In this document: one piece after another, positions 22,669 through 63,546 of the stretch
How positions within the stretch are numbered: position 1 is the first letter of the stretch
How the letters are laid out: each line of letters begins with the position of its first letter
Source: an uncultured Eubacteriales bacterium
GTDB lineage: Bacteria > Bacillota > Clostridia > Christensenellales > Aristaeellaceae
Direction of reading: 5' to 3'
NCBI GenBank assembly: GCA_900318145.1
Contig: ONJM01000003.1
Span: forward strand, 96,512 to 160,511
DNA length: 64,000 nucleotides
Position numbers and translations under genes: made by a program
The notes under the pieces: model-generated
Databases searched by the model: none
Seen by the model: the letters and a program-made list of their open reading frames with translations, nothing else
What the model was told of the DNA's origin: nothing

Positions 22669-23550
22669 TCAGGACTGCGGTTCGTCCTTCGGGTTGACAT
22701 GGATCATCACGTGCTTTACGTTGGGGAATTCCCGTTCGACGGCGCTGTGTACGCGTTCCGCGATCCGGTGGGCGTCGATCAGCGAAATATCCGTTTTCAC
22801 CGCAATCTCAAGATCCACATAAATCCTGTTGCCGAACTGCCGTGTGCGCAGGAGATCAATCCGCTCGACACCGTCCTGCTTTCCGATGAAATCGCGCAGT
22901 CTCTGCTCAAACGCGTTTCCGCAGGAAGTGTCGAGCATTCTGTTCATCGCGTCGCGGGAAATATCGAAAGCGACCTTGAGAATCAGGGCACAGATGACCA
23001 GGCTGGCGATGGGATCCATTACCGGAAATCCCAGCTTTGCCATGCCGATGCCGATAAAAGAACCGACGGAAGAGATCGCGTCTGAGCGGTGATGCCACGC
23101 GTCCGCCCGGAACGCCGCGGAATCGAGTATCCTGGCATAATGCATTGTATACCGGTACATGCCTTCCTTGACGGCGATGGACACAACCGCCGCAATCAGA
23201 GGAAGCATTGTGGGGATCTCAATGCTCCCGTGTTCTCCGAAGAGCTTGCGGATTCCGCTCCAGCCGATTCCGGCTCCGGTACCGGCAAGGATCAGCCCGA
23301 GAAGCAGTGACGCGACGCATTCCAGCCGTTCGTGCCCGTAAGGATGTTCCGCGTCTTCCGCCTGCTTTGAAAGGCGTACGCCGATCCAGGCGATGAAGGT
23401 TGCAAAAACGTCGGAGAGTGAATGCACGGCGTCGGAAACCATCGCGCCGGACCGGCCGAGGATTCCGGCAATCAGCTTAAACGCCGCGAGCAGGATGTTC
23501 CCGAAAATTCCGACACGGGACAGGCGGCTGAAGATCCTTTTTTCATCCAT
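22669..23550 (-). CDS. Cation diffusion facilitator (CDF) metal exporter under NiCo riboswitch control
   Basis: A 293-residue CDF protein: six membrane segments beginning GNILLAAFKLIAGILGRSGAMVSDAVHSLSDVFATF, with metal-site residues in SDAVHSLSD (TM2) and ADAWHHRSDAISS (TM5), then a cytoplasmic ferredoxin-like C-terminal domain (DVDLEIAVKTDISLIDAHRIAERVH ... KHVMIHVNP). CDF proteins export divalent metals by proton antiport. The leader carries a NiCo-type riboswitch, which argues for Ni2+/Co2+ (or Fe2+) as cargo. SD GGAGGAA precedes the ATG. Confidence 0.92.
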   Translation of the reverse strand: MDEKRIFSRLSRVGIFGNILLAAFKLIAGILGRSGAMVSDAVHSLSDVFATFIAWIGVRLSKQAEDAEHPYGHERLECVASLLLGLILAGTGAGIGWSGIRKLFGEHGSIEIPTMLPLIAAVVSIAVKEGMYRYTMHYARILDSAAFRADAWHHRSDAISSVGSFIGIGMAKLGFPVMDPIASLVICALILKVAFDISRDAMNRMLDTSCGNAFEQRLRDFIGKQDGVERIDLLRTRQFGNRIYVDLEIAVKTDISLIDAHRIAERVHSAVEREFPNVKHVMIHVNPKDEPQS

Positions 23551-23597: not shown

Positions 23598-23735
23598 AAA
23601 AAGAGCGCACCCGGGGACATGCTCCTGTCCCGCAGATGCGCTTCGCGCTTTTTCTGCTGCTGTTTTCACAGCCCAGCCACGTAGATCTCCGTGACGGAGA
23701 AATACTGCCTGTTCAGTCTGCCCTGCGGACCGCGC
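23598..23735 (-). promoter_or_regulatory. NiCo (czcD) riboswitch upstream of the CDF gene
   Basis: Read on the minus strand, the leader shows the conserved NiCo elements in order: ACTGAACAGGCA (about 23718-23707), GGCTGGGCTGTGAAAACAGC, a variable hairpin GCGCGAAGCGC, and GCGGGACAGG. An alternative hairpin (GAGC...GCTC, 23603-23624) follows, running into TTTTT (23602-23598), the expected terminator of the expression platform. Ligand binding would favour read-through into the metal exporter gene. Matched from memory of the family consensus, not by a covariance search. Confidence 0.85.
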
Positions 23736-24618: not shown

Positions 24619-25146
24619 TCAGAAGAACCTGACAACTTCTTCAAAAGGCTTTCTGGGACGCGGGGAAGGCGCTTCGCCGCCCTTGCCGACAGCGATCACG
24701 GACATGATTTCCTCGCTGCCGGGGATGCCGAGCATGGCCCGGATGGCGTCCGCGTCACGGATGCCCATAATCAGGGTATCACAGCCTGCGTTTTTTGCGG
24801 CAAGGATCAGCAATGCGTCATGCAGACCGAGATCATACGCGCCCCACCCGTTTCCGATTTCGTTTACGGGCGTTCTGTCGCTGAAGCCGACGGTATTCCG
24901 GACATAAGTGGTAACAATAAGCGCCGCTTTTGCGGAACTGTTCCGGTTGAAGGAAGGGAGAACAGCCGCGCGGAACGCTTCCAGCGTTTCCGGTGTTTCG
25001 ACGACATAGCAGCGGGATGTCTGCTGATTTTTCCAGGAGGGAGCCTGCTGCGCTTCCCGCAGGATTTGCACCAGCGTTTCATGGTCAACGGTGTCCTCGT
25101 ATTTTCTGACGCTCCGGCGCGCATGGATCAGCTCCTGAAATTCCAT
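24619..25146 (-). CDS. Nitroreductase family protein
   Basis: A 175-residue FMN-dependent nitroreductase-fold protein: HARRSVRKYEDTVDHETLVQILREAQQAPSWKNQQTSRCYVV (FMN phosphate-binding Arg cluster and N-terminal dimer helix), then GWGAYDLGLHDALLILAAKNAGCDTLIMG and a C-terminal Arg/Lys-rich end. The in-frame ATG at 25146 sits 8 bases from GGAGG, a better spacing than 25152. It is the last gene of a three-gene unit with a second nitroreductase and a DtxR-family repressor, so its expression is probably metal-linked. Electron acceptor unknown. Confidence 0.86.
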   Translation of the reverse strand: MEFQELIHARRSVRKYEDTVDHETLVQILREAQQAPSWKNQQTSRCYVVETPETLEAFRAAVLPSFNRNSSAKAALIVTTYVRNTVGFSDRTPVNEIGNGWGAYDLGLHDALLILAAKNAGCDTLIMGIRDADAIRAMLGIPGSEEIMSVIAVGKGGEAPSPRPRKPFEEVVRFF

Positions 25147-25182: not shown

Positions 25183-25725
25183 TTACACAATCCGGCTGAT
25201 TTTTTCCTCCCGCAGATCATGCGGTTCCTTGGTGTCGGATGCGTATCCCAATGCCAGCGCGATCACAAAATCATAGCCTTCCGGGCACGCCAGGCGGGCT
25301 TTCAGTTCATCCGCCCTGTTCCCCGCAAACGCGGGTTTCGGCAGACCGAGAATTACACTTCCCACGCCGAGGCCTTCAGCGGCGAGCGCCATGTTTTCGA
25401 CAGCGATTCCGCAGTCCACCTGCGACCATGGAAAATCCTTCTCCCCGAACAGGAAGATGACCGTAGGGGCATGATAGAAAATCTGGAAATCCGGATCGGA
25501 AAACCGGGGGCTCCCGCTCTTTCCCATTACTTTCGCGGCCTCGTCGTGAATCTCCTGAATCAGTTCCGCGTTCTGAACAACGGAAAAATGCCACGGCTGC
25601 CTGTTCCGGGCGCTGGGGGATTCAAGCCCGGCCCGGAGGATGGAGGAAAGAACCTCCTCCGGCAGCTGCTCTTTCCTGTACGCACGATGCGATCTGCGGT
25701 TTGAAATAGCCTGCAATACGTCCAT
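25183..25725 (-). CDS. Nitroreductase family protein
   Basis: A 180-residue FMN-binding protein: AISNRRSHRAYRKEQLPEEVLSSILRAGLESPSARNRQPWHFSVV at the start, VDCGIAVENMALAAEGLGVGSVILG in the middle. The frame is open further upstream to 25827, but AAAGGAGAAGG before the ATG at 25725 fixes the start. It lies 36 bases upstream of the other nitroreductase and 64 bases downstream of dtxR, all on one strand. The two paralogues share only the fold, so they are not a recent duplication. Confidence 0.87.
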   Translation of the reverse strand: MDVLQAISNRRSHRAYRKEQLPEEVLSSILRAGLESPSARNRQPWHFSVVQNAELIQEIHDEAAKVMGKSGSPRFSDPDFQIFYHAPTVIFLFGEKDFPWSQVDCGIAVENMALAAEGLGVGSVILGLPKPAFAGNRADELKARLACPEGYDFVIALALGYASDTKEPHDLREEKISRIV

Positions 25726-25789: not shown

Positions 25790-26149
25790 TTATCTGATCT
25801 GACTGCAGATTGCCGCAAAGGACTCATCCGAAAGATCGTGCTCTATTTTGCAGGCGTCCTCTCTGGCAATCTCTTCGGGGACGCCGATCTGAACCAGGTA
25901 TTTTGTCAGCGCCTTATGCCGGTCATATATTTTCCGCGCAATGGCGTATCCCTTGTCTGTCAGGGAAATCATGCTGTCGGAGCTCATGGTGATGTATCCG
26001 TTCTCTCTCAGCTTTTTCATCGCGACGCTGACCGACGGCTTGGAGACGTTCAGTCCCATGGCAATATCGATCGAACGGGCATGGCCTTTCTTTTCCAGCA
26101 GCATCAAAATCTGCTCCAGATAATCTTCTGACGATTCATAAATCTGCAT
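25790..26149 (-). CDS. DtxR/MntR-family metal-dependent repressor, short form
   Basis: A 119-residue regulator: winged helix (residues ~8-62: EDYLEQILMLLEKKGHARSIDIA, then SKPSVSVAMKKL) and dimerisation/metal domain (residues ~65-119); no SH3-like third domain. Predicted metal ligands: Asp9 and Glu12 (MntR-like), His78, then Cys100-x-x-Glu103-His104, where the Cys is as in DtxR/IdeR rather than MntR's Glu. Iron or manganese cannot be decided from this mix. SD AAGGAGAA fixes the ATG at 26149. First gene of the operon with two nitroreductases; its own promoter carries the operator GTTAG-N6-CTAAC. Confidence 0.88.
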   Translation of the reverse strand: MQIYESSEDYLEQILMLLEKKGHARSIDIAMGLNVSKPSVSVAMKKLRENGYITMSSDSMISLTDKGYAIARKIYDRHKALTKYLVQIGVPEEIAREDACKIEHDLSDESFAAICSQIR

Positions 26150-26288
26150 TTCGGTTCTCCTTCTCTGCAAACCAATAACATTTTCGTTTCGATATGCCGT
26201 CTGACTGCAGGAAGCGGGATGCCACAGCAAGCAGACATCCCGTTTCCCTGAGGTATTGTATTGCCCGGCAGGCTGATCCGATTCTTTT

Positions 26289-26340
26289 GTTAGCAACTCC
26301 TAACCTGAAAAAGTATAACAGATTGCCGCCTGCCCGTCAA
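26289..26340 (-). promoter_or_regulatory. dtxR promoter and operator
   Basis: On the minus strand TTGACG (26340-26335), 17 bases, TATACT (26317-26312). Just downstream is the inverted repeat GTTAG-N6-CTAAC (26289-26304), over the start region. The same 16-base pattern occurs at the ABC exporter promoter (29476-29491), which points to autoregulation plus a shared regulon. Confidence 0.82.
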
Positions 26341-26381
26341 CTGAACCGCGTATGCCGCGGCGCATAACTTCAGCCGTTTTT

Positions 26382-28676
26382 TCATTCGGCTGTTTTCAGC
26401 GCGGCCACCATATCAATATTCCTGTTTTTGCGGGCAACCATCAGACCGACAGCCAGTGAAACGCCGAAAGTCAGGGGAATACTGACCAGCCAGGTGGAAA
26501 GGCCCAGAACCAGTTTCAGTTCATATTCGGACGCCAGGGCGGTCAGCAGATACTGCAGCACGCCCGCGCCGGCAGGTATGCCGATCAGGACACCGAGCAC
26601 TGTCAGCCACAGGTTCTGGCTGATCAGCAGCCGCCCGATTCTGGAATCCTTGAATCCGATTACTTTCAGGGTTGCCATTTCCCGATAGCGTTCCGTGTAG
26701 CTCATGACGCCAAGATTATACAGCACTACAATGCCCAGGATCACAGCGGCAATCACCAGCAGCCAGATCATTTTGTTCATCAGATCCATGAAGATATCAA
26801 ACGAATCCATGATCGACTGCTTGCTCTGCCTGTTCAGGATATGCGGATTGTCCGGGATCTCCGCGGCGTCCGTGAACACGGAAGATATATTGTATGTGAT
26901 GCCGGCTTTATCCGCGAAGGTATCCGTCATGAAGATACCTTCCGTCATGGAGTCCAGCACTCCGGCAACAGGAACGGTATAATGCTCACTGCTGTCATAG
27001 GGAGAGAAGGACAGTTTGTCCCCGGCTTTCAGGCGAAAATCCCGGGCAATCCGTGAGCAGATATATACTCCGTCATCTGTCAGCGGGATGATCCGCATTT
27101 CGGTATCCGCAAAACGGACCTTGTCATGCGTGACGGAATAAATCTCCAGGGAATAGCCTTTATCGCCGATCTGAACTGCCCTGGACGCTGCCCAGTCGCC
27201 GTTCAGGGACGCGGCCAGCGCTTTTCCTTCCTCCGGAGTCGTATTGTCTTCGTCCAGATTGATCCGGGTGGTGTAATTGATCGACTGTTCGTAGAAAATA
27301 TCCAGGAACGCGTCCATTGTATCCTTCATGCCAAGTCCGCCGACCAGCAGTACCATGCATCCGATGATGCCGAAGAGGGTCATGAAGCTCCGGGCTTTAT
27401 GGCGGATACAGTCCCGCAGGTTCCATTTTGTACCGAAGCCGAGCCGCTTGAACCGCTTTGTTTCCTCAAAGCGCAGATGCTTCATTCTTTTCGGGGAGTA
27501 AGGCCGCAAGGCGTCGGCCGCGGTGCCCTGCAGCATTTTCCGCACGGAAAGATAGCCGATAAAGGTAAGAAACGCGATGATTCCGAGGATGACAATCCAT
27601 GTGAACGCCGGGGCGTGAAGCGTCCAGGAGGGCACATCGATATAAGTTGCCATCGCGCTGTCCGGATTCATTATGAACCATCCAAGTCCATAACCGACAG
27701 CGATCCCGAGAACTGTTCCGAGCAGGCCGATGATCATCGCGTAGGCGGAGTAGTGGATCAGGATCTGCCGGTCCCTGAATCCCAGCGCCTTCAGGGTGCC
27801 GATCTGCGTTTTTTCGCTGGCGCAGATCCGGTGCATGGTAGTGACCATTGTCAGGATGGCAATAGCCAGGAAGAGAACCGGCAGGATAGAGGCCATGGTT
27901 TTCCCTTCATTTACTTCGCCCTGCGCTTCCGACCAGGAGATTGTCTCATCCCTGGACAGAATCAGGCGGGTCGTTCCCAGCGCGTGATCGGCCGATTCCA
28001 CAAAAGAGGGCTTGTCCAGGGAGGATTTCACATTGATCTGATGATACAGGGAACCGGCAAAAGCCTTGTATATCGCCGGAACAGCATTGTCCAGCATAAC
28101 CGGTGAGATATATACAAATCCGTAAGTTGAATAATCCGGCATCATCTGTGTGGAATCCGGCAGGCAGATCAGGTATTCACCGGACTTGATCAGGCCTTTC
28201 ACCGTTCCGGCGACCGTGATTGTCTGATAGGTCAGGGTCAGCGGATCCCCCAGGGCGATTCCGTTGGCGGCGGCATAGGAATCCGAAAGCCAGAAACCAT
28301 CCGGATCCTCCGCGCTGTATGGTTCGCCTTTCATGACAAGCATACCGGAAACATTTATGTTTTCACTGACGGTCAGCGCCAGTGTGTCCGTACTGCCCTT
28401 CACCGAAACATTCAGTGAAAGAAACCGGGTCGCATCCTCCACGCCGCTGATCGCCTTTACCTTTTCCAGATCTTCGGGACTGAAGCCCTTGTCACTGTAA
28501 ATCCTGTAATCAGCGAAACCTGTCGCTTCATAGATCTCCCCGGTATTTACTTCCAGCGAGTACCATTCAACATTGAATCCCAGAAAGACGCCGATCCCCA
28601 GCGCCACCATGATCACCATGGAAATGAACTGTGCTTTGTATTGCCAAAGCGTCCGGAAAAGTTTTTTCAGAAGCAT
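26382..28676 (-). CDS. MacB/FtsX-type ABC transporter permease
   Basis: A 764-residue membrane protein with the double-FtsX layout: N-terminal TM (LWQYKAQFISMVIMVALGIGVFLG), a large extracytoplasmic domain, three TMs (~residues 265-385, including ICASEKTQIGTLKALGFRDRQI), another TM and extracytoplasmic domain, and three C-terminal TMs with YTERYREMATLKVIGFKDSRIGRLL. Such permeases export lipids, peptides or toxins, or act mechanically on the envelope. The start overlaps the ATPase stop by one base (TAATG), so the pair forms one transporter. Its promoter bears DtxR-type operators. Confidence 0.9.
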   Translation of the reverse strand: MLLKKLFRTLWQYKAQFISMVIMVALGIGVFLGFNVEWYSLEVNTGEIYEATGFADYRIYSDKGFSPEDLEKVKAISGVEDATRFLSLNVSVKGSTDTLALTVSENINVSGMLVMKGEPYSAEDPDGFWLSDSYAAANGIALGDPLTLTYQTITVAGTVKGLIKSGEYLICLPDSTQMMPDYSTYGFVYISPVMLDNAVPAIYKAFAGSLYHQINVKSSLDKPSFVESADHALGTTRLILSRDETISWSEAQGEVNEGKTMASILPVLFLAIAILTMVTTMHRICASEKTQIGTLKALGFRDRQILIHYSAYAMIIGLLGTVLGIAVGYGLGWFIMNPDSAMATYIDVPSWTLHAPAFTWIVILGIIAFLTFIGYLSVRKMLQGTAADALRPYSPKRMKHLRFEETKRFKRLGFGTKWNLRDCIRHKARSFMTLFGIIGCMVLLVGGLGMKDTMDAFLDIFYEQSINYTTRINLDEDNTTPEEGKALAASLNGDWAASRAVQIGDKGYSLEIYSVTHDKVRFADTEMRIIPLTDDGVYICSRIARDFRLKAGDKLSFSPYDSSEHYTVPVAGVLDSMTEGIFMTDTFADKAGITYNISSVFTDAAEIPDNPHILNRQSKQSIMDSFDIFMDLMNKMIWLLVIAAVILGIVVLYNLGVMSYTERYREMATLKVIGFKDSRIGRLLISQNLWLTVLGVLIGIPAGAGVLQYLLTALASEYELKLVLGLSTWLVSIPLTFGVSLAVGLMVARKNRNIDMVAALKTAE

Positions 28677-29377
28677 TACCAGTCCACCTCTTCCACAGAC
28701 AGGGGATTTTTCTGTTCCTCACAGGATTTTATTTTTCCGTTCTTTACCCGGATGACCAAATCAGCCATTTTCGCGATGTTCTGATTATGGGTCACGATAA
28801 TGATTGTTTTCCCCATATCCCGTGCCATGGAAAGCAGGAGTCTGAGCACCATGACGCCGGTTTCGGAGTCGAGCGCGCCTGTCGGCTCGTCACACAGCAG
28901 TATGTGCGGGTTTTTTGCCAGCGCCCGGGCTATGGAAACGCGCTGCTGCTCCCCGCCCGACAATTCGGAAGGGAACTGGTGGATATGGTCTTCCAGGCCG
29001 ACGGCTTTCAGCATGTCGTGGCTGCTGAGCGGATCCGGCGCGATTTCCTTTACCAGCGCCACGTTTTCGATCACTGTCAGTGTCGGGATCAGGTTATAAC
29101 TCTGGAAAACAAAACCGACGGACGCGGCGCGGTAATCGGCCAGTTCATTGGGCGTCAGCGTGGATATATCCCGTCCGTTCACGATGATTGTGCCTTCCGT
29201 GGGACTGTCCAGTCCGCCGAGCATATTCAGCAGGGTACTCTTTCCGGCGCCGCTTGGACCAAGAACCACAATGAATTTCCCTTCTTCCAGGCTCAGGTTC
29301 ACATGATCCAGCGCGCGCTGCTCATGGTCTCCGTTCCGGTAGATTCTCGTTACATCCCTGAATTCAACAATGGCCAT
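28676..29377 (-). CDS. ABC transporter ATP-binding protein (MacB/LolD type)
   Basis: A 233-residue ATPase with Walker [10 protein letters not shown] near residue 42, Q-loop [17 protein letters not shown], signature [15 protein letters not shown] near 142-155, Walker [13 protein letters not shown], and the H-loop THNQN. These are features of the LolD/MacB subfamily that pairs with FtsX-like permeases. It is first in a two-gene operon with the permease gene. SD for the ATG is AAAGGAGAAAG. The strong promoter 120 bases upstream is covered by two GTTA(G/A)-N6-CTAAC sites. Confidence 0.93.
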
Positions 29378-29474
29378 AACAATCTTTCTCCTTTGTTCTT
29401 CGGGTCCGCTGTTCCGGATGATTCTTCCAGGGGAGCGGAACGTGACCGCGGCCGCGTTCCCTCCGTCCGCTTGA

Positions 29475-29529
29475 GGTTAGTGACGACTAACCACTAACGC
29501 AGTATAGTTAAACTCAACTAACATGTCAA
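29475..29529 (-). promoter_or_regulatory. ABC exporter promoter with two DtxR-type operators
   Basis: On the minus strand TTGACA (29529-29524), 17 bases, TATACT (29506-29501). One operator GTTAG-N6-CTAAC is at 29476-29491, extended by outer G/C pairs at 29475 and 29492. A near copy GTTAA-N6-CTAAC fills the spacer at 29507-29522. A further half-site CTAAC lies at 29494-29498. The interval 29378-29840 otherwise contains the divergent promoter of the pcp fusion gene and no ORF. Confidence 0.82.
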
Positions 29530-29840: not shown

Positions 29841-30887
29841 ATGATTCTTGTAACTGCTTTTGAACCGTTTGGCGGGGAAAAACTGAATCCGGCAGAGATG
29901 ATCCTTAACCTTCTGCCGGACAGGATCGGGGGAACCCGGATCCGGAAACTGCTCCTGCCGGTTGAATTCAAACGGGCGCGGGAACTCGCGGCCGCTGAAT
30001 ACGACCGGATTTCTCCTGCCGCTGTAATTATGCTCGGACAGGCCGGCGGCCGCGGCACCATCACGCCGGAAGCAGCCGGCCGGAACATGATGAACGGCCG
30101 TATTCCGGATAACGCGGGCTGTCAGCCGGATCATATTCCGGTGGTTGACGGCGGTCCTGACCTGCTTTGGTCCACGCTGCCTGTTGACAGGATTATCCGC
30201 GGGGTCAGGGCGCTCGGCATCCCGTGCGAAAGATCCGAAAACGCGGGGGAGTATGTCTGCAACGCCCTGCTGTACGGGATGCTCGCGCATAACGGGGGAG
30301 CTGTTCCGACCGGCTTCATTCATGTCCCGTATATCCGGGAGCAGGGACATGAAGAACAGCCTTTCATGGAGCTGGAAGCAGTCTGCCGGGGAATTACAGC
30401 CGCGATAGAAACAGTGGCGGATGAAATTGCGGAGAAAAGGGCGGTGTGCCTGGAACCGGTTACCGCGGAGAACCTTGAAGCGGTGCTCGCGCTGCGCGTG
30501 GATGACGCCCAGAAGCACTTTGTTTCCACTGCCGCCGAATCACTGGCCCAGGCCTATGTCTACGCGAAGACGGCATTTCCGTTTGCCGTCCGCAGCGGTC
30601 CGGAAACAGTCGGTTTTATTATGATGGGGTACTATGAAAAAAAGAAATACTATACCCTGTGGAAACTGATGATTGACCGAAAGTACCAGCACAGGGGATA
30701 CGGAAGAGCGGCGCTGGAGCAGGGGATTGCGTTCCTGCGGGAAAAGCACGGCGCGCGGGAGATTTATACCGGCGTACTGCCGGAGAATTATGCCGCCAAA
30801 GGCCTGTACCGCTCTGCGGGCTTTGAGGAAACGGGAGTTTTTGAAAACGGCATGCAGGAAATGCGCCTGATCTGCGGACAGGCGTGA
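29841..30887 (+). CDS. Pyroglutamyl-peptidase I fused to a GNAT acetyltransferase
   Basis: A 348-residue two-domain protein. Residues 1-~205 are pyroglutamyl-peptidase I (peptidase C15): MILVTAFEPFGGEKLNPAE, Glu77 in ITPEAAGRN, Cys140 in GEYVCNALLYG, and His161 in GFIHVPY, i.e. a complete Glu-Cys-His triad. Residues ~206-348 are a GNAT domain of the spermidine/BltD-like type (VTAENLEAVLALRVDDAQ, KLMIDRKYQHRGYGRAALEQGIAF, YRSAGFEETG). The peptidase would release N-terminal pyroglutamate; acetylation of the product or of an unrelated amine is inference. The ATG at 29841 is taken over an earlier in-frame ATG because GGGAG precedes it and the family starts there. Confidence 0.88.
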   Translation: MILVTAFEPFGGEKLNPAEMILNLLPDRIGGTRIRKLLLPVEFKRARELAAAEYDRISPAAVIMLGQAGGRGTITPEAAGRNMMNGRIPDNAGCQPDHIPVVDGGPDLLWSTLPVDRIIRGVRALGIPCERSENAGEYVCNALLYGMLAHNGGAVPTGFIHVPYIREQGHEEQPFMELEAVCRGITAAIETVADEIAEKRAVCLEPVTAENLEAVLALRVDDAQKHFVSTAAESLAQAYVYAKTAFPFAVRSGPETVGFIMMGYYEKKKYYTLWKLMIDRKYQHRGYGRAALEQGIAFLREKHGAREIYTGVLPENYAAKGLYRSAGFEETGVFENGMQEMRLICGQA

Positions 30888-32493: not shown

Positions 32494-32674
32494 CGGTGTA
32501 TCTGCGCAGCGATGCGCGGCGCGGTTCCGTAAAAACCGCGTCATAGGAACACGGATGAGAGTTCCGGGCTATCCCAGTAACCGTGAAGCGGACGAACGCA
32601 CGTGATGAAGCCACTGCGTAAGCGGGAAGGTGTGCCAGTAGGATGAGGCAAAGCCGGGAGACTTGTTTACACCG
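32494..32674 (+). promoter_or_regulatory. Cobalamin riboswitch aptamer
   Basis: P1 is formed by CGGTGTA (32494-32500) and TACACCG (32668-32674). Between them lie the family elements in order: GTAACCGTGA, GAAGCCACTG, GCGGGAAGG, AGTAGGATGA, and the B12-box-like AAGCCGGGAGACTTG. It precedes a corrinoid-type ABC transporter, the classical target. Cobalamin binding should lower btuFCD expression. Recognised by consensus, not by a covariance model. Confidence 0.92.
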
Positions 32675-32711
32675 TGAATTTATCATTCCCCTGGGGGTGG
32701 GATATGCTATG

Positions 32712-32825: not shown

Positions 32826-33770
32826 ATGTCCAAGAAACTGGTTTCCCTGTTCCTGGCAGTGCTGATGGTTTTCAGCGCTGCTTCCGTCCTGGCTGAAGGC
32901 TCCGCCGTTACGGTGACCGACATGCACGGCCGTGAAATCACACTGGCCGCTCCGGCGGAAAAAATCGTTGTTCTGATGCCGGCTGATGCTGAAATTCTCT
33001 GGAGCCTTGGCGTGTCAGAATCTATCGTCGGTGTGGGCATGTACTGTGTCACAACGGAAGAGACCGCCGTTATGCCCGGAATTGACGGGAAGGAAGTTGT
33101 AAACTCAGGTTATGTTCTGAACGTGGAACAGATCCTGGCGCTTGCTCCCCAGGTTGTCATCATGACCGAAATGGGCCATGATCCGGATCAGGTCGCGGCG
33201 CTCACCGAGGGCGGCGTGCAGGTCGTCATCACCAACGCCCAGAATCTGGAAGACGTATATACCGATATTGCCCTGCTCGGCGCGGTTACCGGTAAAAACG
33301 CTGAAGCGGAAACGCTTATCACCGATATGAAGGCCAGGTTTGCCGCAATCGGGGAAAAGGCCGGCGAAACGGACAAAACGCTGTACATTGAAGAAAGCCC
33401 GATCTATGACGGTACCGTATGGACCGCCGGAAAAGGCACCTATATGGATGACGTCGCTGCACTCTGTGGCCTGAAGAATATCTTTGCTGATCTCGACGGC
33501 CATCAGGGGGTCTCTGACGAGCAGGTTGTGGCCCGGAATCCCGATCTCATCATCACCACCACCTCCTATGATCCTTCCTGGATGTCCGAAATGCCGGATG
33601 CCGAAATCAAAAACCGCAGCGGCTGGGAAGGCGTTACCGCCGTCATCAACGGCGACGTGATCTACGATCCCACCAATGCCGTGGCGCTCCCCGGCCCGCG
33701 CCTGACGGATGTTGCCGAAATGCTGCTGAACTATATCCAGTCCGAGGAAGCGGCTGATCCCGCTGCCTGA
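32826..33770 (+). CDS. btuF: Corrinoid ABC transporter substrate-binding protein (BtuF-like)
   Basis: A 314-residue exported protein: signal peptide (KKLVSLFLAVLMVFSAASVLAEG) and a periplasmic-binding TroA-like fold (VTVTDMHGREITLAAPAEKIVVLMPADAEILWSLG ... LAPQVVIMTEM ... NPDLIITT). No lipobox Cys is obvious, which is unusual for a Gram-positive binding protein. The cobalamin riboswitch upstream identifies the cargo as a corrinoid more firmly than the protein itself, since iron-siderophore proteins share the fold. First gene of btuFCD. Confidence 0.87.
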   Translation: MSKKLVSLFLAVLMVFSAASVLAEGSAVTVTDMHGREITLAAPAEKIVVLMPADAEILWSLGVSESIVGVGMYCVTTEETAVMPGIDGKEVVNSGYVLNVEQILALAPQVVIMTEMGHDPDQVAALTEGGVQVVITNAQNLEDVYTDIALLGAVTGKNAEAETLITDMKARFAAIGEKAGETDKTLYIEESPIYDGTVWTAGKGTYMDDVAALCGLKNIFADLDGHQGVSDEQVVARNPDLIITTTSYDPSWMSEMPDAEIKNRSGWEGVTAVINGDVIYDPTNAVALPGPRLTDVAEMLLNYIQSEEAADPAA

Positions 33771-33777
33771 CCCGGTT

Positions 33778-33812
33778 CCGGAGCGGACGGCCCGGTTTGC
33801 TGTCCGCTCCGG
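33778..33812 (+). promoter_or_regulatory. Intercistronic stem-loop between btuF and btuC
   Basis: A perfect 11-base stem CCGGAGCGGAC / GTCCGCTCCGG with a 13-base loop, without a proper T run. It may stabilise the btuF message or partially attenuate the downstream genes. Confidence 0.6.
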
Positions 33813-33825
33813 CTTGCTTTGATTT

Positions 33826-34857
33826 ATGATGAATACCCGAAATAAGATTCTCCTTTTCTTTGCGCTGGCCGTTCTTTTTTTGGCGGTCCTGGCTTTGTGC
33901 GTCTGCCTTGGCAGCGTGCAGGTGCCGTTGCGGGAGTCCGTTTCCCTGCTGTGGCACGGAATGCTCGGGAACGCGCTGCCGGAGAGCGTAAACCGGTCCA
34001 TCGTGCTGTCCATTCGCGTGCCGCGCGTCCTCTGCGCGGCGCTGATGGGTGCCGCCCTGAGCCTGTGCGGCGCGGCGATGCAGGGACTGCTCAGGAATCC
34101 GCTGGCCGACGGCTCGACACTGGGCGTTTCTTCCGGAGCGGCGCTGGGCGCAGCCCTGTCCATTGCGCTGGGAATCACCATACCCGGGCTGCCGATTGCC
34201 GGCTCCGCGGTAATGGCGATGATCTTTGCCTTTGGCAGCCTTCTCGTGATTCTGGGACTTACCTGGGGTATTGACCGCAGCTTTGCGACGCACAATATCA
34301 TCCTGATCGGCGTAGTCTTTACCATGCTGATTTCAGCGATGCTGAGCATTCTTATCGCTTTTTCCGGGGAAAAGCTGCGTTCCATTACTTACTGGACAAT
34401 GGGCTCCCTCAGCGGCAAAAGCTATGAGCAGGCCGCGGTTCTCCTGGGCGGACTGATCCTTTTCGGCACGCCCCTGTTCATGCAGAGCCGGGAGCTGAAT
34501 GCCTTTGCCGTAGGAGAGGAAAACGCCGTACATATCGGCGTGCCGGTGCGGCGGGTCAAACTGACGGTTCTGATCTGTGCTTCCGCGCTGATCGGCATCT
34601 GTGTATCCATCGGGGGAAGCATCGCCTTTGTCGGTCTGATCATCCCGCATACGGTGCGTCTGGCGGCCGGGCCCAACCACAGCCGGCTGCTGCCGCTGTC
34701 GGCTTTTGCCGGGGCTGTTTTCCTGATGCTGGCGGATCTGGCGGCCCGGAGTATCCTGAGTCCGATAGAACTGCCCATCGGCGTCATCACTTCCCTGATC
34801 GGCGCGCTGGTTTTTATCGCAATCTTTTACCGGAGCCGGAAAGGAGGAGTGCGCTGA
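33826..34857 (+). CDS. btuC: Corrinoid ABC transporter permease (BtuC/FecCD family)
   Basis: A 343-residue permease with about ten TM segments and FecCD signatures: RVPRVLCAALMGAALSLCGAAMQGLLRNPLADGSTLGVSSGAALGAAL near residues 60-110 and GGSIAFVGLIIPHTVRLAAGPNHSRLLP near 260-290. It overlaps btuD by one base (TGATG). Its own SD is poor, so translation may depend on coupling; ATGs at 33826 and 33829 are both possible. Confidence 0.92.
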   Translation: MMNTRNKILLFFALAVLFLAVLALCVCLGSVQVPLRESVSLLWHGMLGNALPESVNRSIVLSIRVPRVLCAALMGAALSLCGAAMQGLLRNPLADGSTLGVSSGAALGAALSIALGITIPGLPIAGSAVMAMIFAFGSLLVILGLTWGIDRSFATHNIILIGVVFTMLISAMLSILIAFSGEKLRSITYWTMGSLSGKSYEQAAVLLGGLILFGTPLFMQSRELNAFAVGEENAVHIGVPVRRVKLTVLICASALIGICVSIGGSIAFVGLIIPHTVRLAAGPNHSRLLPLSAFAGAVFLMLADLAARSILSPIELPIGVITSLIGALVFIAIFYRSRKGGVR

Positions 34858-35615
34858 TGCTGAAAGCAGAGCACCTTTCAGTCCGCTACGGAGAGAAGCC
34901 TGTCCTGCGGGATCTGTCCCTGCATCTGAACGAAGGCGAATGGTGGGTTGTCGTAGGTCCGAACGGTGCCGGGAAATCCACCCTGGCCGGCGCGCTGGGC
35001 AAAACGGTGCCCTATACAGGCAGAATCACCCTGGAAGGCCGGGATATCCGGGAGATTCCGGCGCGGGAATACGCCAGGAAAGCAGGGATCCTGAGCCAGA
35101 CACATACCGCGGTCTACGGGTTTACCGTGGAAGAAGTAGTCAGCCTCGGCCGCTATGCCAGGACGGCCGGTTTCCTGCGCAAAAGCGATACCGGCGGGGC
35201 GGAGGAGATCGATACGGCGCTGGCGCTGACCGGACTGACCGATATGCGCGGACGAAATATGCTGACGCTTTCAGGCGGTGAAACACAGCGTGTTTTTCTG
35301 GCCCAGGTATTCGCCCAGAATCCGCGGGTGCTGATTCTGGATGAGCCGGCAAACCACCTGGACCTGAAATACCAGCAGCATATTTTTTCACTGATCCGGG
35401 AATGGCTGAAAGCGCCGGGGCGCGCGGTCCTGTCCGTTGTGCATGACCTGAGCCTTGCCGGAAAATACGGGACGCACGCGATTCTGATGGATCACGGGGA
35501 AAGCGTTTCACAGGGCATCATCGGCGAAGTGATGACCCCGGAAAACCTGCGGCGAGTGTACGGTATGGATGTATACGCATGGATGCGGGAAATGCTGTCA
35601 CAATGGAAGGAATAA
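34857..35615 (+). CDS. btuD: Corrinoid ABC transporter ATP-binding protein (BtuD/FepC-like)
   Basis: A 252-residue ATPase: Walker A GPNGAGKST near residue 39, Q-loop LSQTHTAVYGFTVEEVVSLGRY, signature LSGGETQRVFLAQVFAQ, Walker B VLILDEPANHLD, H-loop VVHDLS. Third gene of the riboswitch-controlled operon, SD AAGGAGGAG within the end of btuC. No cobalamin salvage genes follow. Confidence 0.92.
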   Translation: MLKAEHLSVRYGEKPVLRDLSLHLNEGEWWVVVGPNGAGKSTLAGALGKTVPYTGRITLEGRDIREIPAREYARKAGILSQTHTAVYGFTVEEVVSLGRYARTAGFLRKSDTGGAEEIDTALALTGLTDMRGRNMLTLSGGETQRVFLAQVFAQNPRVLILDEPANHLDLKYQQHIFSLIREWLKAPGRAVLSVVHDLSLAGKYGTHAILMDHGESVSQGIIGEVMTPENLRRVYGMDVYAWMREMLSQWKE

Positions 35616-63346: not shown

Positions 63347-63546
63347 CTGTCAAAAAATGGCAATGCACCCTTTACTGTACCCTTTAGAGAAAATGACCAA
63401 ATTGTACAAATTATTACGCTTGAATAACAAAACCGCGCGGCGTTAGCGTTGTCAAACCGCTCGCACCGCGCTATATCATCCTATTGTTCCAAGCGAAATT
63501 TTAACCGGGAATAGATTTGTTGACTCGCAGATCCAATTTCAATCTA

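Follow-up and report, generated by a model that had tools for sequence, protein, structure and literature searches.

What reads the 16-base inverted repeat GTTAG-N6-CTAAC that stands at the promoters of a DtxR-family repressor gene and of an ATP-binding cassette (ABC) transporter in an uncultured Eubacteriales bacterium, and which other genes does it control? The repeat was noticed in a stretch of 64,000 nucleotides of contig ONJM01000003.1, which in its whole length is called the window here. A first-pass annotation made from the sequence alone had assigned it to an undescribed metal-gated regulon made up of the repressor, a MacB-like exporter and two nitroreductases. Our analysis makes it highly probable that an iron-responsive DtxR-family repressor of Clostridia, built of two domains, uses GTTAG-N6-CTAAC as its operator. 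The link between DtxR and the transporter held, the nitroreductases fell away, and the proposed regulon proved incomplete: genes of iron limitation and a candidate small RNA are to be added. The argument is built on what was computed, namely the operator and its exact spacing, its position at promoters, the genes behind it, its co-occurrence with DtxR and a covarying RNA that follows it.

Both promoters of the window were recognised in the sequence and by a promoter scan, and both have a 17-bp spacer. The dtxR promoter (26312..26340, minus strand; –35 TTGACG 26335-26340, –10 TATACT 26312-26317) is followed by an exact operator at 26289..26304, 7 nt past the –10 box. The transporter promoter (29501..29529, minus strand; –35 TTGACA 29524-29529, –10 TATACT 29501-29506) is followed by another exact operator at 29476..29491, 9 nt past the –10 box, and a second operator with one mismatch (29507..29522), 31 bp from the first, fills its –35/–10 spacer. 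Rechecking these positions bore out the first-pass annotation on the repeat downstream of TATACT at both promoters and on the near copy in the spacer. With at most one mismatch the window holds four matches where 0.56 are expected, a number reached in 1 of 100 shuffles; the fourth (63442-63457), with no gene called nearby, is probably due to chance. The source genome, with a completeness of 88%, holds five exact operators and one match of the reversed pattern. They belong to dtxR, the ABC transporter, an FTR1 operon encoding, by Pfam, FTR1, P19-type Iron_transport, FtrD-like and FtsX/MacB_PCD proteins, a ZIP transporter, and a site on contig C56 without an obvious iron gene. All five can be assigned because the C56 site precedes the best-scoring copy of the small RNA described below.

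The repeat extends well beyond this genome. Across 45 genomes of the genus we counted 217 operator sites against 49 for the reversed-pattern control, with a match in 40 of the 45. Spacing is strict: over spacings of 2-14 between GTTAG and CTAAC in eight genomes, a hand count gave 62 N6 sites against 2 independent sites at any other spacing, further N10 (two) and N2 (one) matches being excluded as non-independent where they overlap N6 sites. The reversed pattern was discarded as a control for this variable-spacing scan, with 19-83 counts per genome, above the 6-11 of the true pattern, since the words GTTAG and CTAAC are rare; its place was taken by the true half-sites at other spacings. A strong –10 box has its first base 7-17 nt before the site at 58 of 152 unique sites, compared with 23 of 4000 when positions were drawn at random from these loci. 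The operator covers the start of transcription, the place expected for a repressor. Close pairs of sites number 81 in relatives, many of them spaced 23-38, 75-77 or 125-127 bp. The ten fixed bases belonged to the search pattern, so the 152-site set is no test of their conservation; the six inner bases show a weak A/T bias. We conclude that GTTAG-N6-CTAAC is the operator of a regulon wider than the window. Among the 243 genomes of the class set the totals lie closer together (671 sites against 471 for the reversed control), and what carries the signal in this set is how genomes that have a DtxR match differ from those that have none.

A DtxR match (E<=0.001) was present in 40/45 genus, 110/120 family and 191/243 class genomes. 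When 242 class genomes were compared, the source genome being excluded, the 139 with a strong match (E<1e-20) had a mean of 4.04 sites against 1.88 for the control, the 51 with a weak match 1.22 against 2.27, and the 52 with none 0.83 against 1.79. A rank test, uncorrected for kinship, gave 2.6e-18 for the sites and 0.84 for the control. The strongest evidence that DtxR reads the operator is the placement of sites at dtxR and feo genes in distant families, where dtxR and feoA have sites between them and feoB has sites directly before it. The feo genes adjoin dtxR in 14 of 29 class dtxR loci, and sites with at most one mismatch occur in 13 of these 14 and in 3 of the 15 others. Read from the side of the operator, dtxR with feo appears at 8 of the 29 first-listed class site loci, most of the remainder being unclassifiable. 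In five loci of distant Clostridia (L318, L320, L316, L314 and L321; L-numbers are labels of fetched loci) a further operator stands directly before feoB, behind feoA, so that feoB may have its own iron-controlled promoter.

The main reader might be another protein, either a small AraC regulator that recurs at these loci or a second, divergent DtxR, with the DtxR of the window doing some other job. Some genomes do carry two to four DtxR matches, and the small AraC gene is often found beside the sites. However, the source genome has a single DtxR match, the number of sites tracks the DtxR match, and the site is a palindrome with the core and register of DtxR/IdeR operators, whereas AraC proteins usually read direct repeats. 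We therefore regard a different reader as quite unlikely and keep to DtxR.

The likeness to the iron regulon controlled by DtxR/IdeR in Actinobacteria goes further. Both repressors combine a winged helix-turn-helix with a metal-binding dimer domain, both have Cys, Glu and His as primary ligands, and both have iron-uptake targets. IdeR binds TTAGG-N4-CCTAA as one dimer (PMC8464063), and the core TTAG-N6-CTAA is shared in the same register and with identical spacing, although the inner G/C of the IdeR operator is not conserved in the 152 sites. The clostridial site of 16 bp presumably holds one dimer, in contrast to the 19-bp double site of DtxR/IdeR. Unlike these proteins, the window repressor has no SH3 domain, and at its first ligand in Clostridia Met is much rarer than Asp or Asn.

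Which metal would such a repressor sense? The gene at 25790..26149 (minus strand) encodes 119 aa that match Pfam Fe_dep_repress (51.7 bits, cut-off 26) and Fe_dep_repr_C (56.6 bits, cut-off 27), placing the protein in the DtxR/MntR family, and the chain ends after the dimer domain without the C-terminal SH3-like domain of the DtxR/IdeR iron sensors. Its ligand positions are D9, E12, H78, C100, E103 and H104. Asp9 and Cys100 align with Asp and Glu metal-ligand positions of Bacillus subtilis MntR (ligand identities from PMC4805248), so that Cys100 stands where MntR has Glu99. The Cys102, Glu105 and His106 positions of DtxR/IdeR are taken by C100, E103 and H104 in 50 of 50 close orthologues, while the Met10 position holds Asp9 in the window copy. 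H78 is also present in 50/50, and position 9 is Asp in 44/50, Asn in 3 and a gap in 3. Nine more divergent DtxR copies have Cys in 8/9 and Met9 in 4/9, and in 38 class-level copies Cys100, E103 and H104 are found 38 times out of 38, with Asn (25), Asp (5), Met (4) or a gap (4) at position 9. The mixture of an MntR-type Asp9 with a DtxR-type Cys100, already remarked on in the first pass, is thus confirmed, and the Cys is invariant among close orthologues. A precedent for a mixed Asp, Cys, Glu and His set is PgMntR of Porphyromonas gingivalis, which binds Mn and Fe (PMC4805248), and sulfur ligands increase the preference for Fe(II) (PMC10317159). The source genome gave no Fur-family match, and the same is true of 9 among the 13 genus genomes of high quality. 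Because of the conserved Cys100, the preference lent by sulfur ligands, the PgMntR set and the lack of Fur matches in these genomes, Fe(II) is our best guess for the effector, though still a guess.

The same protein could be viewed as an MntR-type sensor of manganese, or of manganese and iron together, in which case the regulon would answer a shortage of manganese or of divalent metals in general. ZIP transporters can carry Mn or Zn. The closest solved chains, the best matches in the PDB, are MntR, and the two-domain build and the Asp9, Glu12 and His78 positions are those of MntR from B. subtilis and Escherichia coli; PgMntR, with its Asp/Cys/Glu/His site, also accepts both metals (PMC4805248). 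Against this, the targets recognised, no search having been aimed at MntH or MntABC genes, are the iron systems FeoAB, FTR1, P19 and FtrD-like proteins, the Glu of MntR is replaced by Cys100 in every close orthologue, and some copies have Met9. The NCBIfam cut-offs for MntR were not reached (99.9 vs 153 and 84.2 vs 138 bits). PgMntR differs from the window repressor in its extra FeoA domains and is described as a regulator that responds to Mn and is linked to the Mn transport gene feoB2 (PMC4805248). We consider a manganese or mixed sensor unlikely and Fe(II) the better reading.

The regulon looks like an iron-acquisition and iron-limitation set comprising feoAB, FTR1 with P19, ZIP and DUF3793. 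Gene content was read in 61 stretches, of which 60 were fetched for sites or a dtxR gene and the last is the window. The clusters that recur behind sites are DUF3793, the small AraC regulator, the transporter ATPase, FTR1, ABC half-transporters and FeoA, followed by TetR, ZIP, a NuoE-like protein, FeoB and DtxR. FeoB, FTR1, ZIP, DUF3793 and the AraC domain were checked by Pfam and most other gene names were given by eye, including those of the genes that we take to be IrtAB-like, NuoE-like, TetR, flavodoxin, enolase and phosphoglycerate mutase. Among iron-uptake genes the operator precedes feoA/B, FTR1 and ZIP in relatives, and FTR1 and ZIP in the source genome. No paper turned up on DUF3793 in connection with iron. 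Among the matches listed, none describes an iron DtxR of Clostridia or a GTTAG-N6-CTAAC operator; most subscription journals and RegPrecise lay outside the scope, so an earlier description is possible.

Several of these loci have features of their own. At L089, L099, L164, L170 and L172 the FTR1 operon, feoAB or the transporter has as its neighbour the small AraC-type regulator (~120-138 aa), whose promoter region carries two or three operators. At L136:17968-18336, L188:4551-4907 and L191:4557-4931, araC and the transporter or FTR1 operon are accompanied by a DtxR-like gene of greater divergence, which may encode a second metal regulator. Exact or one-mismatch sites before phosphoglycerate mutase- and enolase-looking genes in the genus (L077, L081, L102 and L127) suggest a link between iron and glycolysis; at L081 and L127 the small RNA lies between the operator and the mutase gene. 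At L079, L086, L091, L103, L125 and L129 the site lies 137-147 bp upstream of a NuoE-like gene, and in 6/6 of these loci it is upstream of the predicted promoter and not on it, a placement for which activation is possible. A site at nuo genes is also among those bound by IdeR (PMC8464063).

The transporter behind the second promoter consists of an ATPase of 233 aa (28676..29377, minus strand; Pfam ABC_tran) and an FtsX-type permease of 764 aa (26382..28676, minus strand) with two Pfam FtsX stretches and eight predicted transmembrane segments. Hydropathy and an hhalign comparison of the halves (probability 96.6) show that the permease is made of two homologous halves with one FtsX domain each. 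Its nearest solved chains, all with weak E-values, are YtrF, an ABC permease, MacB, LolC and LolF, and the nearest NCBIfam models of the ATPase are LolD, DevA, MacB and FtsE, all below their cut-offs. The labels MacB, LolC/E, YbbP and ADOP were rejected for both proteins, every NCBIfam match being below cut-off. As for MacB, the ATPase scores 200.1 vs 966 bits, ATPase and permease are separate genes, and the permease has no MacB_PCD match. FtsX domains and a LolD/MacB-like ATPase are shared with the type VII FtsX systems (MacB, LolCDE, YtrF and SifBC), from which the transporter differs by the fusion of two FtsX units in one chain and by sub-cut-off scores throughout NCBIfam.

That one operator joins the repressor to this transporter, as the first pass had claimed, is a conserved arrangement. 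A site with at most one mismatch lies within 320 bp upstream at 31 of the 41 transporter loci with a recognisable ATPase open reading frame (ORF). Among the ten without a near site, L164, L170, L172 and L178 have the transporter behind an araC gene that carries sites, three sites lie 500-680 bp upstream in L171, and in L192 the transporter lies behind feoB. When the named loci are added, 43 of 65 distinct regions ahead of the ATPase hold a site with at most one mismatch, 30 of them exact, compared with 28/3250 in shuffled regions and 295/5000 in random windows of the same loci, which include the true sites. Orthologues (E<=1e-100) were found in 25/45 genus and 23/120 family genomes, and feoAB-transporter clusters at 53-59% identity occur in metagenome-assembled genomes labelled Ruminococcus and Ruminococcaceae. 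Where flanks reach up to 6 kb, 26 of 47 transporter loci have an iron-related gene as a neighbour, and where they are 1.5 kb long, 15 of 44 do. SifBC of Bifidobacterium breve, iron-linked FtsX-type permeases whose mutants are sensitive to ferrous chelation (PMC5449479), are a precedent for an iron-uptake role; the transporter itself would aid iron acquisition or export a chelator.

The two nitroreductase-fold genes behind dtxR (25183-25725 and 24619-25146, minus strand; Pfam Nitroreductase) are neighbours, not supported as members. The first-pass annotation had counted them in the regulon, but no exact or one-mismatch operator precedes them, and with flanks of at most 1.5 kb they stand beside dtxR at 1 of 56 dtxR loci, the source genome itself, and on these grounds they were rejected as members. 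The same counts bear on the idea that exporter and nitroreductases form a drug or xenobiotic defence unit that shares a metal repressor by chance. The ATPase is MacB-like and the nitroreductases do adjoin dtxR in the source genome, yet this adjacency is found nowhere else among the 56 loci, the transporter has the iron-related neighbours counted above, and the gene calls put nothing between ATPase, permease and dtxR, no search having been aimed at a membrane-fusion partner. A defence unit is most improbable, and we keep the transporter with the iron regulon.

A common non-coding stretch follows several of the operators that have no protein gene behind them, and it folds as a covarying RNA of ~100 nt, with a hairpin, an exposed UACCUCC (anti-Shine-Dalgarno) and a GC-hairpin terminator with a U run. 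Copies behind exact operators were found at L092:5157-5256 (minus strand), L131, L124, L080, L100, L088, L090, L081, L127 and L327. The ten complete copies behind an operator have one layout: TTGACG or TTGACA is separated by 17-18 bp from a TATAAT-like box, an exact operator comes next, and the RNA core begins 22-24 nt after the operator start, or 64 nt after it in the source genome. The alignment (A2) and the model (R1) were built on ten copies and 330 loci were scanned. The best score, 105.4 bits, belongs to the copy behind the fifth exact site of the source genome, itself part of the model, and copies outside the training set reached 93.1 bits (G007), 87.2 bits (G002), 73.2 bits (G028) and 94.4 bits (G010); a further copy, at L226, is cut by the contig end. 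Over 13 sequences and 25 pairs, 99.4% of cells are paired and six pairs are changed on both sides, with 18 cells changed on both sides against 4.1 in shuffles (0/500) and at most 46% paired in slid structures. By one measure, further pair types, the alignment does not exceed its shuffles (459/500). In the first hairpin 7 of 11 pairs are invariant. Between the hairpins UACCUCC is kept in 13/13 and UUACCUCC in 9/13, and three copies have a second ACCUCC. No Rfam family reached the gathering threshold in five RNA loci; two sub-threshold hits with E<=1 fell in one locus. No paper on the ~100-nt RNA was among the literature matches listed, in which no search was aimed at the RNA itself.

Iron-sparing small RNAs under an iron repressor are exemplified by FsrA (Fur) and MrsI (IdeR). 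The element of Clostridia is a candidate of this kind, a covarying, terminator-ended RNA under the operator of a putative iron repressor. With RyhB (Fur) it shares an iron-repressor promoter, short length, an exposed pairing stretch and a terminator (PMC7762939), and it differs from RyhB, FsrA and MrsI in its anti-Shine-Dalgarno ACCUCC core and in matching no Rfam family at the five loci.

It might be asked whether the element acts in cis, as a leader or attenuator. A same-strand gene lies downstream in 4 of the 10 operator-linked copies, four more copies lie behind other genes with no operator within 130 nt, and the dtxR leader is faintly similar. Conversely, 6 of the 10 face a gene called on the opposite strand, though in the source genome this is just an ORF of 54 aa, and such an arrangement favours a free transcript. 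What lies downstream varies from genome to genome in most cases, a GC hairpin with a U run closes the RNA, and the exposed ACCUCC is kept. We hold a cis-acting element to be rather unlikely and favour a small RNA that would act in trans.

The dtxR leader deserves separate mention. A weak, degenerate likeness to the RNA at 26203..26286 (minus strand) scores 22.4 bits, with an E-value of 0.038 over 0.81 Mb and 0.00029 over 6 kb. It keeps a UACCUC stretch and the GC hairpin, the first hairpin being mostly gone, and its fold is no stronger than that of shuffles (z –0.64). Related dtxR leaders score 31.7 bits (L140) and 22.9 bits (L144) with R1; a match at L146 was not counted, as its place is ahead of the operator, where a different gene ends. 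The likeness may mark a decayed copy of the RNA or an RNA that is cut from the dtxR leader itself, or it may be due to chance. A riboswitch in the dtxR 5' untranslated region was also considered and dropped, Rfam finding none there and the fold being no better than shuffles. Near the small RNA of the source genome, L092:3783-5137 holds four copies, one inverted, of a 29-36 nt interspersed repeat (TGAAACGGAGGGACGGTCTTTTTCGTTTCAC), and on the other side of the C56 operator a gene at L092:5512-5799 (plus strand) encodes a 95-aa peptide with a double-glycine type leader.

A unifying model can be drawn from these data. With enough Fe(II), a metal-loaded repressor dimer would sit on the transcription start and block RNA polymerase. 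At low iron, the apo-repressor would release the operator, and iron uptake through FeoAB, FTR1 with P19 or ZIP, depending on the species, would be switched on together with the FtsX-type ABC transporter and, in some species, dtxR itself. The small RNA, with its conserved core of ~100 nt, would then be made from its own promoter, and its exposed ACCUCC would probably pair with Shine-Dalgarno sequences, sparing iron as RyhB and FsrA do.

Several points weigh against an iron-responsive DtxR as reader of the whole set. The statistics are uncorrected for kinship. Exact sites are missing from 14 of the 139 class genomes whose DtxR match is strong, and family f48 accounts for five of these. The operator of dtxR itself is kept, with at most one mismatch, in only 11 of 25 close orthologues. 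The only feoB found in the source genome has no site (at most two mismatches, 500 bp upstream), so that the regulon there comprises only dtxR, the transporter, the FTR1 operon, ZIP and the RNA. Several orphan sites have no RNA match, for example L130:11946 and L097:17669, and a Fur-family protein occurs in 15 of 45 genus genomes. According to one review, DtxR members without an SH3 domain are not Fe-responsive in vivo (PMC7762939), and PgMntR, with the same ligands, has been studied as a manganese regulator (PMC4805248).

Another review assigns iron to Fur and only manganese to DtxR in low-GC Gram-positives (PMC10317159). With a two-domain DtxR whose sites stand on the promoters of feoAB in several families of Clostridia, the statements of both reviews can be put to the test (PMC10317159, PMC7762939). 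We lean towards a broader picture in which much of the class Clostridia controls iron by a two-domain Cys-type DtxR at GTTAG-N6-CTAAC, and in which this repressor in one genus also controls a stand-alone anti-Shine-Dalgarno small RNA, as a counterpart of RyhB/FsrA, and a fused double-FtsX transporter that would be a new element of bacterial iron handling. The operator can serve as a simple guide to the iron regulons of gut Clostridia that have not been cultured and, if the model is true, the RNA would be a new iron-sparing small-RNA family in anaerobes that depend on iron-sulfur enzymes.

Other features of the window lie outside these subjects. A NiCo riboswitch (23623-23726, minus strand, 51.4 bits), ~2.1 kb from dtxR, precedes a cation-diffusion-facilitator gene at 22669-23550, and a Cobalamin riboswitch (32507-32683, plus strand, 56.8 bits) precedes an apparent binding-protein ABC import operon at 32826-35615. 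Between them, an ORF at 29841-30887 (plus strand) joins a pyroglutamyl-peptidase domain to a GNAT acetyltransferase domain.

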